A DNA stretch of 64,000 nucleotides. It comes from Ralstonia pickettii (GTDB lineage Bacteria; Pseudomonadota; Gammaproteobacteria; Burkholderiales; Burkholderiaceae). Positions within the stretch are counted from its first letter, which is position 1, and every line of letters begins with the position of its first letter. The notes beneath the pieces were generated by a model that saw only the letters and a list, made by a program, of their open reading frames with translations, searched no databases and was not told the origin of the DNA. Made by a program: the position numbers and the translations under genes. The DNA lies in contig NZ_JFZG01000024.1 in assembly GCF_000607165.1 (NCBI RefSeq), positions 682,001 through 746,000 of the forward strand, in the 5' to 3' direction. Shown here in pieces: positions 28,905 to 34,983 of this stretch.

Positions 28905-28945
28905 GGAAAGCCCTGTTTTAGACCTGATTATGGAAATCGGTATAA

Positions 28946-28987
28946 ATTATAGTCGAATCTATAATTAGGCCTAATTCGGCTCGAATT
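28946..28987. promoter_or_regulatory. Three overlapping palindromes upstream of the ATPase gene
   Basis: Within an AT-rich island are ATTATAG-N6-CTATAAT (28946-28965), the perfect 14-bp palindrome AATTAGGCCTAATT (28963-28976) and AATTCG-N3-CGAATT (28973-28987). Each overlaps the next by 3-4 bases. They lie 42-83 bp before the ATPase start and 91-132 bp before the DUF2946 start. Such density suggests a regulator-binding array. Confidence 0.65.
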
Positions 28988-29048
28988 GAACGTTCTTTGA
29001 TCTGCGTGGCAGTCCGTCGCAGGCAAATTGTGGAATCTTGTGTAGCGC

Positions 29049-29077: not shown

Positions 29078-29479
29078 ATGTTCTCTCGCCGCTGGCTCTT
29101 CCTCGTCTGGCTTGCGATCGTACTGAACGTACTGTCGCCGGTGCTCGCTTCCGCTCGCGCGGCGGCCACGGGCACGCTTGCCGTCGAGCTGTGCAGCGCA
29201 ACGGCACCGCATGGCACCACCGTGCAGGTTGCCATCGACCTCCAAGGCGATGGCTCCGCCGACGATTCGGCGGCCCACCACAGCGTGGCGCACTGTCTGT
29301 ATTGCCCGGGGTTTGCAGCCGGGCTGGCGCTGGCCTCGTTGCCGGCGCTGGATGTTCCTTCCGCCCATTTCGTCTATCGCGTGCGGCAGCCGGCCACCCC
29401 GGCGCCCGTCTACGCGCGCAGCGCGCTGCGCGTGGCCGAGTCGCGCGCGCCTCCTGTGTCTCCGTCGTTGTCGATCTGA
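29078..29479 (+). CDS. DUF2946 protein, candidate CruR-like copper-sensing leader ORF
   Basis: This 133-residue product has an N-terminal hydrophobic export segment (WLFLVWLAIVLNVLSPVLA). A His-rich stretch leads into HHSVAHCLYCPGF, a C73-x2-C76 site with His68, His69 and His72. This is the DUF2946 hallmark. In Bordetella a DUF2946 ORF ahead of the TonB receptor gene bfrG (CruR) is reported to act as a copper-responsive upstream ORF whose translation controls the downstream genes. Here too it is the first ORF, 84 nt before a TonB receptor. ATG 29078 is chosen at the start of the signal segment; the open frame extends to 28997. Confidence 0.78.
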   Translation: MFSRRWLFLVWLAIVLNVLSPVLASARAAATGTLAVELCSATAPHGTTVQVAIDLQGDGSADDSAAHHSVAHCLYCPGFAAGLALASLPALDVPSAHFVYRVRQPATPAPVYARSALRVAESRAPPVSPSLSI

Positions 29480-29563: not shown

Positions 29564-31882
29564 ATGTCATTCCACAAGCGCGCCAGGGCCGCCGCCCCTA
29601 AGCGCACGCTGGTGTGCCGTGCTGCGCTCGCCCTGAGCGCGGCGGCACCGTTGTCTGTTGTCGCTGCTGAAGACGCGGCCCCCGTGCCCGTGCCTGTTAC
29701 ACAGGAACTCGCGCCCACCGTGGTGCGGGCCAACGCCAACCCCACTCCATTCGCCCGCAATACGCCGGCGGTCGTGCAAAACGTGACGGCCGATCAACTG
29801 GCTGACCGCAACGTCGTCACCACCGAAGACGCGGTCAAATACCAGCCCAACGTGATGGTGCGCCGCCGCTTCATCGGCGACCGCAACTCCATCTTTGCCG
29901 GCCGCGATTTCAACGAGATTCAAAGTGCACGCGGCCTGCTGTATGCCGACGGCATCCTGCTCTCGAACCTGCTTGGCTCCAGCTACAGCTACCCGCCGCG
30001 CTGGTCGATGGTCGGGCCGGATGACCTTGCGCGCGTAGATATTTTGTATGGACCGTTCTCGGCGCTGCTGCCGGGCAACTCGATGGGTACGACCATCGCG
30101 ATGACGTTGCGCCGCCCCGAAAAATTCGAGGCCGCCGCGCAGACGCAGGTGATGAGCCAGCATTACAACGATGCATATGGCTTTTCGCGCAACGTCACCG
30201 GAAACCACGAAAGCGCATCGCTGGGCGACCGCATCGGCAAGTTCTGGTATGCGCTGTCAGTCGACCGGCTGGAGAACGATAGCCAGCCGATGCAATACGC
30301 CACGCCCAACTCCAGGTTCACGGCAGGCGGTACGCCGGTGCCGGTCACGGGTGCGCGGCAGGATGTGGGCCCCAACGGCCAGCCGCGCGTGATTCTCGGG
30401 CCGCAGATGCTGGAGCGGACCCAGCAACTGCAAGAGACGGTGCGCCTGGGTTACGTCTTCAGCGACAGCCTGGAGGCGTCGCTCACGCTGGGCCACTGGG
30501 AAAACCATTTCAACGATCAGGCGCTCAGCTTCCTGCGCGATGCCGCCGGCAACACTGTCACGGGCGGCAATGTGCTGATCAACGGCACGCCGTACACCAT
30601 CGCCCCGAACACCTTTGCGCCGCAAAACGGCGATCAGGAAAACTGGCTCTACGGCCTGGGCGTGAAAGGCAAGATCGGTGGCTGGAAGATCGACACCAAC
30701 GCGTCGGCCTACAACGTCACGCGCGACATCCTGCGCGCGTCCAACACGGCGGCTGGCAATGGGCCCGGCACGGTGTTCTACGGCGACGGCACGGGCTGGT
30801 CCAACTTCGACATCAAGGCGACGTCGCCCACGGTGTCCGGCCATACCTTCACGACCGGCTACCACTACGACCAATACCACCTGCGTAACCAGACCTTCAA
30901 CGCGACCAACTGGTCGACGGAAACGCTATCGACGCTCAAATCCAGCTACCAGGGCGACACGCAAACGCAGGCCGTCTTCATGCAGGACGCGTGGGCGTTT
31001 GCACCGCGCTGGCTCGCCACGCTGGGCCTGCGCTACGAAAGCTGGCGCGCCTACAACGGCCAACTGGGCAACGGCACGAGCACGTTGGGCTACGCCAGCC
31101 GCACCGAAGACGCGTTCTCGCCCAAGGCCGCCATCCAATGGCAGGCCACGCAAGACACGCTGCTGCGCCTGTCGTACGGCCGTGCGGTGCGTTTTCCGAC
31201 GGTGGCCGAACTGTTCCAGGGCACGATCAGCGGCAACACGATCGTCAACAACGACCCGAACCTCAAGCCTGAACGCGCCAATGATCTCGACTTCACCGTC
31301 GAACAGGCCGTGCCCTACGGCGTGCTGCGTACCAGCCTGTTCCAGAGCGACGTGCGCGACAGCATCTACACGCAGACCAACATCACGGTCACGCCCAACG
31401 TGACGAACGTACAGAACGTGGACCACGTGCGCACGCGCGGCATCGAACTGGCGTATTCGGGGCAGGACGTTCTGCAGGATGCGGGTGTGCGCGGCGTGGA
31501 CGTTGAAGCCAACGTCGCCTTCACGCAATCGAAAACGCTGGCCGACGCCGCCAACCCCACCTACGTCGACAAGACCTGGCCACGCATGCCGCGCGTGCGT
31601 GCCAACCTGTTTGCCAGTTGGCACGCCACGCAGGACTGGACGGTGGGCGCAGGCGTGCGCTATTCGGGGCGGCAATACGGCACCCTCGACAACACCGATG
31701 TGCTGCCGAACGTCTACGGTGGCACCAGCAGCTTCTTCACCGTGGACCTCAAGGCCAGCTACCGCATCGACAAGCACATCACGCTGGCGCTGGGCGTCGA
31801 CAACCTGACCGACCGGCGGTACTTCGTGTACCACCCGTATCCGTCACGCACCCTCTATGGACAACTGAAATGGCGCCTGTAA
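29564..31882 (+). CDS. TonB-dependent outer-membrane receptor
   Basis: The 772-residue protein has a signal peptide ending SVVAA, a plug domain (ELAPTVVRANANPTPFARN, AVVQNVTADQLADRNVVTTEDAVKYQPNVMV, DDLARVDILYGPFSAL) and a 22-strand barrel. The barrel ends LALGVDNLTDRRYFVYHPYPSRTLYGQLKWRL, with the terminal aromatic-containing strand. GGAGAT precedes ATG 29564. With the DUF2946 leader and a His-rich plus CxxC-containing downstream pair, it resembles the copper-regulated BfrG operon. The ligand could be a copper or other metal complex. Confidence 0.92.
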   Translation: MSFHKRARAAAPKRTLVCRAALALSAAAPLSVVAAEDAAPVPVPVTQELAPTVVRANANPTPFARNTPAVVQNVTADQLADRNVVTTEDAVKYQPNVMVRRRFIGDRNSIFAGRDFNEIQSARGLLYADGILLSNLLGSSYSYPPRWSMVGPDDLARVDILYGPFSALLPGNSMGTTIAMTLRRPEKFEAAAQTQVMSQHYNDAYGFSRNVTGNHESASLGDRIGKFWYALSVDRLENDSQPMQYATPNSRFTAGGTPVPVTGARQDVGPNGQPRVILGPQMLERTQQLQETVRLGYVFSDSLEASLTLGHWENHFNDQALSFLRDAAGNTVTGGNVLINGTPYTIAPNTFAPQNGDQENWLYGLGVKGKIGGWKIDTNASAYNVTRDILRASNTAAGNGPGTVFYGDGTGWSNFDIKATSPTVSGHTFTTGYHYDQYHLRNQTFNATNWSTETLSTLKSSYQGDTQTQAVFMQDAWAFAPRWLATLGLRYESWRAYNGQLGNGTSTLGYASRTEDAFSPKAAIQWQATQDTLLRLSYGRAVRFPTVAELFQGTISGNTIVNNDPNLKPERANDLDFTVEQAVPYGVLRTSLFQSDVRDSIYTQTNITVTPNVTNVQNVDHVRTRGIELAYSGQDVLQDAGVRGVDVEANVAFTQSKTLADAANPTYVDKTWPRMPRVRANLFASWHATQDWTVGAGVRYSGRQYGTLDNTDVLPNVYGGTSSFFTVDLKASYRIDKHITLALGVDNLTDRRYFVYHPYPSRTLYGQLKWRL

Positions 31883-33135
31883 TGCAGTCGATTCCTCGAT
31901 TCCTTGCCGGTGCGCTGCTGGCTCTTGCGGCAACGGTGGCGCTTGCGCACGAAGGCCATGACCACGGCGCCATGGCAGGCAAGGCTGCCGCAAAACCGCA
32001 GCTTGCGACGACCGCGGCGTTCGACAAGGCAGGGCGCTTGTGGGTGACCTGGGCGGAAGGCCAGCACGTAGTGATCGCCTCGTCCGACGATCTCGGCAAG
32101 ACGTTCTCCAGGCCGCAGCGCATCAACCCCCAACCCGAGCCGATCTATACCGACGGCGAGAACCGTCCGAAGGTCATCGTCAGCCCGGACGGTGCGTTGT
32201 ATGTGAGCTGGTCGCGCCCGCTCGATGCGCCGTACACGGGCTTCGTGCGTTTCTCGCGCTCGCTTGACGGCGGCACGACGTGGAGCGCGCCGATCACCGT
32301 CCACCACGACCGCCAGCCGATCACGCACCGCTTCGATTCGATCGCGGTCGACAGCGCGGGCCACATCTTCATCACGTGGATCGACAAGCGCGACCTGCTG
32401 CGCGCGCAGGCGGCTAAACAGCCGTACGACGGCGCGGCGGTGTACTACACCGTTTCGACCGACCGCGGCGCCACCTTCGCGCCCGAGCGCAAGGTCATCG
32501 ACCAGACCTGCGAATGCTGCCGCATTGCGCTGGCGCCCGATGCCGACGGCCACATGCTCGCGCTGTGGCGCAACGTGTTTGCCGGGCAGATTCGCGACCA
32601 CGCATTGGCGACATTACCGATCGATAACACGCCGCTTGCCGTCACGCGCGCAACGTTCTCGGAATGGCGCGTCGATGCGTGTCCGCACCATGGCCCCGCG
32701 TTGGCCGTCACGGCCGATGGCGTGCGGCACATGGCGTGGTTCTCGGTGCTGCAGGACAAGCCTGGCCTGTTTTACCGCCGGCTCTCGGCCGACGGCAAGC
32801 CGATCGGCGGCGCATGGTCCTTTGCCGGTTCGGCACAGGCCGGTGCGCAGGCATCGCACCCCGCGCTGCTGGCGGCGGACGGCGCACTGTGGCTGGTGTG
32901 GAAACAGTTTGCCGAAGACCGCATGCAGATCCTGCTGCGCAAATCCACCGACGGCGGCACGCACTGGACAGCGCCGGCCAGCATTGCAAACACCGATGGC
33001 GGCAGCGATCACCCGCAACTGCTCGCGCGCGATGGCCATGTCTACCTGTCGTGGCGCACGCAGGCCGAGGGCTATCGGCTGATCGATGTCAGTAATGTCG
33101 CCCTGTCCAATCCATCATTGGAGGCATCGAAATGA
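31882..33135 (+). CDS. Exported His-rich BNR/sialidase-fold protein
   Basis: From ATG 31882 (TAATG overlap with the receptor stop) the product is 417 residues with a signal peptide (FLAGALLALAATVALA) and a mature N-terminus HEGHDHGAMAG. The remainder has BNR/Asp-box repeats (SDDLGKTFSRP, SLDGGTTWSAP, STDRGATFAPE, STDGGTHWTAP) of a six-bladed propeller. A Cys pair appears in DQTCECCRIAL. The His-rich start and CxCC suggest metal binding rather than sialidase activity. ATG 31870 is an alternative start. Confidence 0.82.
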   Translation: MQSIPRFLAGALLALAATVALAHEGHDHGAMAGKAAAKPQLATTAAFDKAGRLWVTWAEGQHVVIASSDDLGKTFSRPQRINPQPEPIYTDGENRPKVIVSPDGALYVSWSRPLDAPYTGFVRFSRSLDGGTTWSAPITVHHDRQPITHRFDSIAVDSAGHIFITWIDKRDLLRAQAAKQPYDGAAVYYTVSTDRGATFAPERKVIDQTCECCRIALAPDADGHMLALWRNVFAGQIRDHALATLPIDNTPLAVTRATFSEWRVDACPHHGPALAVTADGVRHMAWFSVLQDKPGLFYRRLSADGKPIGGAWSFAGSAQAGAQASHPALLAADGALWLVWKQFAEDRMQILLRKSTDGGTHWTAPASIANTDGGSDHPQLLARDGHVYLSWRTQAEGYRLIDVSNVALSNPSLEASK

Positions 33136-33674
33136 ACATTCGATGGAAATCTTTTGCGATGGGCGTGGCGCTATCCGCCGCCGCCTTCACCGCCACCTTC
33201 GCCGCCACCTTCGCCGCCACCTTCGCCGCGCAGGCCGCAGGCGCGCTGCAGTTCCAGCCGCTGCGTGCGCGCGATGTGCCTGCGCTGCTGCAGACGCCGC
33301 ACGCGCGCCCGCTCATCGTCGAAATCTGGTCATTGGAATGCAGCTACTGCCGCGAGAACATCGCCCGTATCGCGCAATGGCGGCGCACCGCCAAGCAAGA
33401 TGTGGATGTGGTGATGGTGTCGATGGACGGCCCCGACCAGGCCGAGATGCTGAACCGCGCGCTGGCGCCGCTGGCCCGCGACGGAAAGATCGGCATTACA
33501 CGTGTGCCGCAATACGCCAATGCCGAAGACATGCCGGAGCGCCTGCGTGCTGCGCTCGACCCTGGCTGGCAGGGCGAGATGCCGCGCACGATCATCCTGC
33601 GTCCTGACGGCAAGCGCCATGTATCGAGCGGGTTGCTGACGCTGCAGGCGCTGGACACGGCGCTCAGGGATTAA
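33132..33674 (+). CDS. Periplasmic thioredoxin-fold protein
   Basis: The 180-residue product has a signal segment containing a triple TFAA repeat. A thioredoxin fold follows with the active site WSLECSYC (Cys70-x2-Cys73), and a cis-Pro region at EMPRTIILRPDG. It likely reduces or metallates a partner, perhaps the CxCC of the BNR protein encoded just upstream. The start overlaps the previous stop (ATGA). Confidence 0.85.
   Translation: MNIRWKSFAMGVALSAAAFTATFAATFAATFAAQAAGALQFQPLRARDVPALLQTPHARPLIVEIWSLECSYCRENIARIAQWRRTAKQDVDVVMVSMDGPDQAEMLNRALAPLARDGKIGITRVPQYANAEDMPERLRAALDPGWQGEMPRTIILRPDGKRHVSSGLLTLQALDTALRD
33192..33227 (+). repeat. Three perfect 12-bp tandem repeats in a signal-peptide region
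   Basis: GCCACCTTCGCC occurs three times in a row and encodes ATFA units within the hydrophobic export segment of the thioredoxin-like protein. Copy-number change would lengthen or shorten the signal peptide in frame. Confidence 0.9.
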
Positions 33675-33732
33675 TCAGAAAACGACGCGGACCCCCCTCG
33701 TTGTTGGGGTATGGCGGGGGGCGCGCACTTTT

Positions 33733-33738
33733 TATAAT
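33733..33738 (+). promoter_or_regulatory. Consensus -10 box of the candidate small RNA
   Basis: A perfect TATAAT stands 7 nt before the first base of the 5' stem of the downstream RNA. No clear -35 TTGACA exists at 17 bp spacing, so an activator may be involved. Confidence 0.65.
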
Positions 33739-33744
33739 GGCCTC

Positions 33745-33858
33745 GCTTTGTGAATTCCGGCGCATTGCTCGTTCACAAAGCACACCCGACCATCTTTCGT
33801 CGTCAAAGGCTGAAGATGTTAAGCCCGCCCGCCCCCCGGCCCGCGGGCTTTTTCTTTG
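33745..33858 (+). ncRNA. Candidate structured small RNA with intrinsic terminator
   Basis: Starting exactly where TATAAT would initiate, GCTTTGTGAA (33745-33754) pairs perfectly with TTCACAAAGC (33772-33781) around a 17-nt loop. A second hairpin pairs CATCTT (33791-33796) with AAGATG (33813-33818), and its loop contains CGTCGTC. A GC-rich terminator stem (33821-33850) and T-run close the unit. No ORF with coding character covers it. It matches no RNA family I can recognise (not 6S, SRP, tmRNA or RNase P). The size is about 114 nt. Confidence 0.68.
33821..33858 (+). terminator. Rho-independent terminator of the small RNA
   Basis: AAGCCCGC and GCGGGCTT form an 8-bp stem around a C-rich loop, followed by TTTCTTT. 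It may also end read-through from the copper-type operon. Confidence 0.75.
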
Positions 33859-33922: not shown

Positions 33923-34207
33923 TCAGCGCGTTGTCGCGTGCGAAGAAGGGGGGTATTGCTCGGACGCGCGCTCCGCATCATTGGATGCCGCACCCAGGCC
34001 CACCGCCACGGCGGCCAGCAAGAGAGCAACACCACGCGCGATGTAGAACACCGCTTGCGCACCGGCCATTTCCGGCTTGTCAGATGGGGTATCACCAAGA
34101 TGGGCGTGCCAGGTATTGCGCGTGGCCCGATCCCGATGGGGCAGCGGATCACGATAGGCGCGTGGTGCGTGCGTGCGGTGCGTCGGATGAGGCTGCATGT
34201 GCGACAT
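33923..34207 (-). CDS. Small single-helix membrane protein downstream of the TSUP gene
   Basis: The 94-residue product has a His/Arg-rich N-terminal half (MSHMQPHPTHRTHAPR and onward). One clear membrane helix follows (AVFYIARGVALLLAAVAVGLG) and then a short polar tail. AGGAG lies 7 nt before ATG 34207. The start is only 17 bp after the TSUP transporter stop, so it is likely the second gene of that operon. I do not recognise the family. The His-rich face could bind metal, but this is a guess. Confidence 0.6.
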   Translation of the reverse strand: MSHMQPHPTHRTHAPRAYRDPLPHRDRATRNTWHAHLGDTPSDKPEMAGAQAVFYIARGVALLLAAVAVGLGAASNDAERASEQYPPSSHATTR

Positions 34208-34224
34208 GGCGGTTCTCCTCATGC

Positions 34225-34983
34225 TTAAACGTGCGACCAGGCGCGCCAGAACAGCAGCGCTGTCATCGAAAAGCCGAAGGTGGAAATCAACGCCCGGACA
34301 ACCGGCACCGGCAAACGCTTGCCGACGTGCGCGCCCAGATAACCGCCCAGTGCGGCAGCCACCAGCATGACCAGCGTCTGTGGCCACCACACCATCCTGG
34401 CAAGTGCAAAACAGGCTACGGCCACGAGGTTCGTCGCGCCCACCAGCAGCGTGCGCGAGGCGTTCAATGCTTTGATGTCGTCGTGGCCGAACAGTGCCCA
34501 GACCGCCATCATCATGATCCCCACCGCGCCACCAAAATAGCCGCCATAGATGGCCAACGCACCTTGCGCGACGAGCAGTGTTGTCCGCCCGATCTGCATG
34601 CGCTGGCGCAGCCACACACCGGCCTGTTTGCCGAACGTGAATGCGAGCGAGCCGATCAGCAGAAGCCACGGCACGATGAAATCGAACGCGCGGGACGACG
34701 TGTTCATCAACAGCAGCGCGCCGAGCAGCCCGCCCACCAGGCTGATCCCCACCATGGCGCGCATCGAGACCTGCCCGAACCCGCGATAGTCCGCGCGATA
34801 CGCCCACGCTGAAGTGGCCGCGCCGGGTAACAGCGCGACCGTGCTCGACGCATTGGCAAACACCGACGGCACACCCGCGAACATGAGCGCAGGCAGGGTG
34901 ACAAACGAGCCACCGCCCGCCAGCGCATTCATCATGCCGGCGAGCAGGCCCGCGCCAAAAAGCAGCAGCGTGGCGGATTCCAT
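34225..34983 (-). CDS. TSUP/TauE-SafE family membrane transporter
   Basis: The 252-residue protein has about eight helices. It carries the two TSUP half-repeats: AGLLAGMMNALAGGGSFVTLPAL near the start and IYGGYFGGAVGIMMMAV in the second half. The family exports sulfite, sulfoacetate or other organic anions. ATG 34983 is the first residue of the conserved helix. A LysR gene diverges from it. Confidence 0.9.
   Translation of the reverse strand: MESATLLLFGAGLLAGMMNALAGGGSFVTLPALMFAGVPSVFANASSTVALLPGAATSAWAYRADYRGFGQVSMRAMVGISLVGGLLGALLLMNTSSRAFDFIVPWLLLIGSLAFTFGKQAGVWLRQRMQIGRTTLLVAQGALAIYGGYFGGAVGIMMMAVWALFGHDDIKALNASRTLLVGATNLVAVACFALARMVWWPQTLVMLVAAALGGYLGAHVGKRLPVPVVRALISTFGFSMTALLFWRAWSHV

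Follow-up and report, generated by a model that had tools for sequence, protein, structure and literature searches.

Does the short intergenic region that follows a copper-type operon in Ralstonia pickettii hold a gene of its own, and is the product of that gene an RNA? The region is bounded by an AhpC/TSA gene, which ends at 33674, and by a small convergent gene whose end is at 33923, within a 64,000-nucleotide stretch (the window; positions 682,001 to 746,000 of contig NZ_JFZG01000024.1) that is part of a 1.03-Mb contig in a genome of 5.75 Mb. A preliminary description of the window had proposed a free-standing sRNA gene of about 114 nt at this site, consisting of a −10 element, a stem, a further hairpin and finally a GC-rich terminator plus T-run. 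Our analysis leads to the same reading, to which we assign a probability of about 0.92: positions 33745-33858 constitute an sRNA gene, in which a −10 element of its own (without a −35) and an intrinsic terminator bound a stable fold in intergenic sequence.

The hexamer TATAAT occupies 33733-33738 and the first stem begins at 33745, leaving 6 nt in between. Folding of 33745-33858, a check that the preliminary description had proposed, gave three hairpins with a free energy of −47.6 kcal/mol and a z-score of −5.93 (none of 200 shuffled sequences folded as well), arranged as a 5′ hairpin (SL1), a second hairpin (SL2) and a GC-rich terminator followed by a U-run. Fold and coordinates thus confirmed the described succession of elements, the SL1 arm comprising 10 Watson-Crick pairs and one U-G pair. 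The features of the candidate transcription unit are the following:

33692-33713, forward strand: conserved block CCCCCC-N8-GGGGTATG, centred near −42 (alignment)
33733-33738, forward strand: −10 hexamer TATAAT within the invariant TTTTTATAATGG (sequence, alignment)
33745-33781, forward strand: 5′ hairpin SL1, arms 33745-33755 and 33771-33781 (fold)
33782-33790, forward strand: linker ACACCCGAC, unpaired and invariant (fold, alignment); candidate seed for base pairing
33791-33818, forward strand: hairpin SL2, 7 + 3 bp (fold)
33821-33857, forward strand: intrinsic terminator with an 8-bp outer stem (33821-33850) and the U-tract UUUUUCUUU (33849-33857) (fold, alignment)

Taken by itself the SL1 stem proves little, because the GC-rich 64-kb window abounds in inverted repeats of this length: we counted 99 pairs of 10 nt or more at short distance; 23 of the 25 longest are overlapping palindromes and the SL1 repeat is not among these 25. 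What goes beyond chance is the combination of elements and above all its conservation. A consensus scanner listed neither the promoter of the sRNA, which lacks a −35, nor its terminator.

Two blocks of the promoter region, TTTTTATAATGG with the −10 and TTGGGGTATG at −41 to −32, are invariant in all 16 genomes of the genus, and five of the six columns of a C-run at −53 to −48 are invariant as well. Beyond these invariant blocks promoter conservation is lost, with 19 of the 45 columns of 33700-33744 variable, and by eye no −35 hexamer is present 16-18 nt before the −10. The missing −35 combined with the invariant TTGGGGTATG block suggests an activator. Activators that touch RNA polymerase often bind near −42, and the block at 33692-33713 is, judging from its position and conservation, probably an activator site taking the place of a −35. 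The R. pickettii genome has a single occurrence of TTGGGGTATG linked to TATAAT; looser forms of the upstream block numbered 11, itself included, against 10 for the control, and at this control level no regulon was found. The upstream block was also considered as a terminator of the preceding operon and rejected, its RNA fold being no better than that of shuffled sequences (z +0.38).

The RNA is present as a single copy in each of the 16 genus genomes searched, at 97-100 % identity; no plant-pathogenic Ralstonia species is named among the matching records. The 16 copies comprise 8 distinct sequences and differ at five of 114 columns, namely one deletion in the SL1 loop, one change in the terminator's internal loop and three within stems. 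The stem changes are one-sided and preserve pairing, converting U-G to U-A or U-A to U-G, and two pair-preserving changes in SL2 occur together in one genome. Across the 8 distinct sequences all 280 pair cells are intact, the linker is invariant and the loops are nearly so. Stem arms varying without compensation among relatives, which the preliminary description had named as evidence that would speak against an RNA, were not what we observed: variation was very low and every stem change kept its pair. The stems show no compensatory double change among the 16 genomes, and covariation proper cannot be demonstrated because no pair changes on both sides; a shuffle control for the pairing of the stem changes returned 500 of 500 and is uninformative.

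The surroundings of the RNA vary far more in the same relatives. Pooling the nearby TonB receptor, LysR and AMP-ligase genes (16, 15 and 15 sequences, respectively), 34 % of columns vary, the LysR gene showing 19, 8 and 80 % variability at codon positions 1, 2 and 3. The BNR gene (41 %) and the AhpC gene (54 %) lie above this pool; the TSUP gene was left out of the comparison, its 76 % being inflated by a truncated match in one genome. At a rate of 34 %, five or fewer variable columns among 114 would be expected with a probability of 9e-15, a rough figure that takes columns as independent and must be read with the relatedness of the genomes in mind. The RNA is thus better conserved than the sequence around it. 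Where the assembly consists of 2-4 contigs, as in four genomes, the contig carrying the RNA measures 1.36-1.98 Mb and is never the largest, suggesting a location on the second replicon.

As far as is detectable, the RNA is restricted to one genus. Neither blastn nor a covariance model returned a convincing homologue in 233 genomes of the family from outside the genus. With blastn (as a rule only three candidates per genome were scored) 19 of the 233 gave matches at E ≤ 0.01, extending over only 19-42 nt and falling in the terminator in 16 of the 19 cases. The covariance model gave matches at E ≤ 0.1 in 66 of the 233, and 10 of 14 that we inspected end in a terminator with TTTTTCTTTG. By eye, none of the 14 is similar in sequence beyond the terminator, and we rejected all as homologues; the best (E 3e-7) differs in its 5′ hairpin and is not preceded by a TATAAT within 60 nt. 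The second match of the model in the R. pickettii genome itself proved to be a terminator after a tRNA gene. Short 20-nt-piece matches in one Deltaproteobacteria and one Clostridia record share only 20-23 nt and were dismissed as chance. No match at E ≤ 1e-5 was obtained in collections of plasmids and phages, a silence that says little for the plasmid set, which contains no TSUP relative above 60 % identity and seems to lack this region of the genus. Five of the 14 inspected matches represent a different three-hairpin RNA-like element of about 96 nt, alike in five genomes of another genus of the family (g10), for which no Rfam match at gathering score was found at the one locus tested.

A search of the whole window against Rfam 15, likewise proposed at the outset, yielded no match at gathering score, in line with the earlier remark that no known family was recognised in it; such scores as there are fall below threshold. 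The best is Trp_leader (RF00513; 16.5 bits against a gathering score of 41), which matches largely through the terminator and differs from the present locus, where the RNA contains no leader frame and the next gene is convergent. OxyS, at about 109 nt, has several stem-loops and an activator-dependent promoter. The candidate RNA resembles such trans-acting, Hfq-type intergenic sRNAs of Proteobacteria in its size, its own promoter, its stem-loops, its intrinsic terminator with U-tail and the apparent activator site instead of a −35; no sequence relation to them was found. A second sub-threshold match is RF02278, the Betaproteobacteria toxic sRNA or bdhR1 (13.6 bits against 50, at 33787-33856), and this family, with Bordetella S17, is alike in bacterial class, size range and terminator. 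According to excerpts of a report on Bordetella, S17S appears to arise by processing of a longer transcript and no promoter was identified adjoining it (PMC11722255), whereas the candidate RNA has a predicted promoter of its own. Within open-licence PubMed Central, titles and abstract openings of the sRNA literature on the genus revealed none about this RNA, and no paper dedicated to the sRNAs of the genus stood out. Excerpts of a Burkholderia sRNA prediction indicate that Ralstonia genomes were used there for comparison (PMC3521395). The best reading is of a free-standing, genus-restricted sRNA that is new to the literature as far as we have seen.

How might such an RNA be made and act? We infer its transcription, its start (from the distance to the −10), its stability and its activator. 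Transcription would proceed from a sigma-70 −10 without a −35, starting at or next to 33745, probably with the aid of an activator occupying a site around −42, and termination at the intrinsic terminator would give an RNA of about 110-114 nt. With a hairpin right at its 5′ end, the molecule should be shielded from 5′-end-dependent decay. A hairpin with a U-tail is the usual landing site of Hfq, and the hairpin with its UUUUUCUUU tail is the only Hfq-type feature seen in the candidate RNA. Because the protected 5′ end, the terminator with U-tail and the invariant unpaired stretches fit a trans-acting sRNA, we propose that the RNA probably acts in trans by base pairing with mRNAs, most likely through the invariant linker, the hairpin loops or both. 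Base pairing and the identity of its targets are the least certain part of this proposal.

Limited searches for targets, covering two seed patterns and nine neighbouring starts, gave no site that held. The complement of the linker is not enriched in the 16 genomes, which contain 65 non-self sites for it and 75 for its reversed control. The complement of 12 nt of the SL1 loop has 158 non-self sites against 14 for its reversed control, which is a poor one for coding DNA because the reversed word carries TAA. Eleven of the 12 non-self loop-complement sites in the R. pickettii genome fall in open frames of at least 260 codons on either strand. The twelfth is intergenic, with a 17-nt pairing that includes one G-U, and its region is present in all 16 genomes. 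This site was rejected as a target: each of six alignable divergent rows carries at least one change in it and has lost the start codon that follows, a seventh divergent row having been left out of the alignment for its short locus.

The main rival is that the RNA works by binding a protein, either to titrate a regulator or as part of a particle, with fold and loops together acting as the ligand. The near-invariance of the full 114 nt, stems and loops alike, would suit such a role, as would the lack of a conserved target in these limited searches. The sequence shows by eye no repeated protein-binding motif of the GGA kind recognised by CsrA, however, its fold has no large internal bulge of the 6S kind, and the absence of an Rfam match tells against it too. 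We regard a protein ligand as unlikely, and as the alternative to be taken most seriously.

A second alternative concerns the operon upstream, whose genes and those beyond the RNA are arranged as follows:

29078-29479, forward strand: opening gene of the operon, a DUF2946/CruR-like leader ORF containing CLYC and RAPP motifs (ATG start chosen; the listed ORF begins at 28997)
29564-31882, forward strand: TonB-dependent receptor of the same operon (domain search)
31882-33135, forward strand: BNR-repeat protein (domain search)
33132-33674, forward strand: AhpC/TSA (thioredoxin-like) protein, last gene of the operon (22.9, below the Pfam gathering score of 26)
33923-34207, reverse strand: predicted small protein that contains a hydrophobic stretch; its gene separates the RNA from the TSUP gene
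34225-34980, reverse strand: TauE/SafE (TSUP) permease, convergent (domain search, relatives)

The first ORF scores 54.0 bits against DUF2946, with a cut-off of 23.7. In excerpts of work on Bordetella pertussis, CLYC and RAPP are features for copper sensing and translation arrest by CruR (PMC9426467). The receptor reached no NCBIfam type at cut-off, and TIGR01778, a copper receptor, gave 54 bits against 472. Homology of the leader ORF to DUF2946/CruR, and not the receptor, thus marks the operon as of the copper type, as the preliminary description had held. Excerpts of PMC12914433 place a PepSY_TM gene after more than 75 % of crtA receptor genes, whereas here a BNR protein follows the receptor. 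The adjoining operon is of the same type as the CruR (DUF2946) copper operons; CruR itself is a leader peptide with a Rho switch, whereas the candidate RNA is a separate unit after the operon. It goes unmentioned in the available passages of PMC9426467 and PMC12914433, those of the latter containing neither ‘sRNA’ nor ‘Ralstonia’.

Several further observations were made on these genes. AT-rich inverted repeats (AATTAGGCCTAATT and neighbours) at 28940-28980, upstream of the DUF2946 ORF, are possibly the operator of the CruR-like operon. A 12-bp tandem repeat of 4.5 copies at 33176-33229 encodes repeated TFAA in the signal-peptide region of the AhpC/TSA protein, where matches in relatives span fewer bases. 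The gene for the small protein is fast-evolving, with 47-88 % identity where found and no counterpart found in one of 15 relatives; the protein (scanned as 33923-34210) has no Pfam or NCBIfam match at E 0.001.

The RNA begins 70 nt after the last gene of this operon on the same strand, and the operon lies upstream of it in 16 of 16 genomes, so that it could be regarded as the 3′ end or terminator of a read-through operon transcript. It has however an invariant −10 and upstream block of its own, and invariance of SL1, SL2 and the linker is more than a plain terminator would call for. The order DUF2946, TonB receptor, BNR, AhpC/TSA and RNA is retained throughout (the window and 15 stretches of other genomes), with the TSUP gene at most 1 kb after the RNA in 15 of the 16. 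Three genomes carry an extra 0.8-0.9 kb between operon and RNA, containing a 234-amino-acid ORF in the one inspected, and a fourth has about 5.5 kb between the RNA and the small gene. The RNA and its −10 are intact in all four, and since it remains intact where a neighbour is separated from it, it looks like a unit of its own. Outside the genus, where a BNR relative was found in 21 of 110 genomes searched, a scan with filters off did not detect the RNA in about 0.9 kb downstream of a related operon at ten loci (in the genera g12, probably Cupriavidus, g14 and g3 of the family), the best score there, 15.3 bits (E 0.021), lying inside the BNR gene. We consider an origin as the operon's 3′ end very unlikely. 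Intactness beside displaced neighbours, together with presence in every genus genome, five variable columns, pair-preserving changes and an invariant −10, gives good support to the free-standing sRNA gene of about 114 nt.

For the suggestion that the RNA might be co-regulated with the operon or the TSUP locus we obtained no support. Near these loci the window has no further copy of the promoter block, and complementarity of four RNA segments to nine neighbouring starts (eight genes) was no better than that to random window pieces, none falling below the 5th percentile of 600 such pieces, a weak test in that the random pieces are probably richer in GC than the starts.

That the RNA encodes a short peptide, or belongs to a protein gene, is extremely improbable: one frame is open through the RNA from a GTG at 33750, yet translations viewed by eye show no start-to-stop frame (ATG, GTG or TTG) of more than one codon within it, a single base is missing in one genome (possibly through an assembly error), and 109 of 114 columns are invariant with no third-position pattern. 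Equally hard to credit is a DNA operator in place of an RNA hairpin. Half sites of the CRP type do resemble TTTGTGAA...TTCACAAA, but the arms stand 15-17 nt apart, too far for such a site, and the linker, SL2 and terminator are conserved as much as the arms.

The 114 nt of the RNA are nearly frozen across species in which a third of the columns of nearby genes vary, and being so unusually frozen marks the RNA as important to the genus, for which it is a useful and well-founded first sRNA candidate. One specific role would be that of a copper-sparing regulator, switched on at copper scarcity with the CruR-type operon and repressing mRNAs of dispensable copper proteins, RyhB being its iron-sparing counterpart. 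We hold this role to be improbable: the one observation in its favour is that all 16 genomes have the RNA in a fixed position beside the operon, neither a shared operator nor a target came to light, and the link to copper is only positional. That fixed place by a CruR-type operon nevertheless provides a directly testable condition, copper starvation, and if the copper-sparing reading were true the RNA would be a copper counterpart of the RyhB type.
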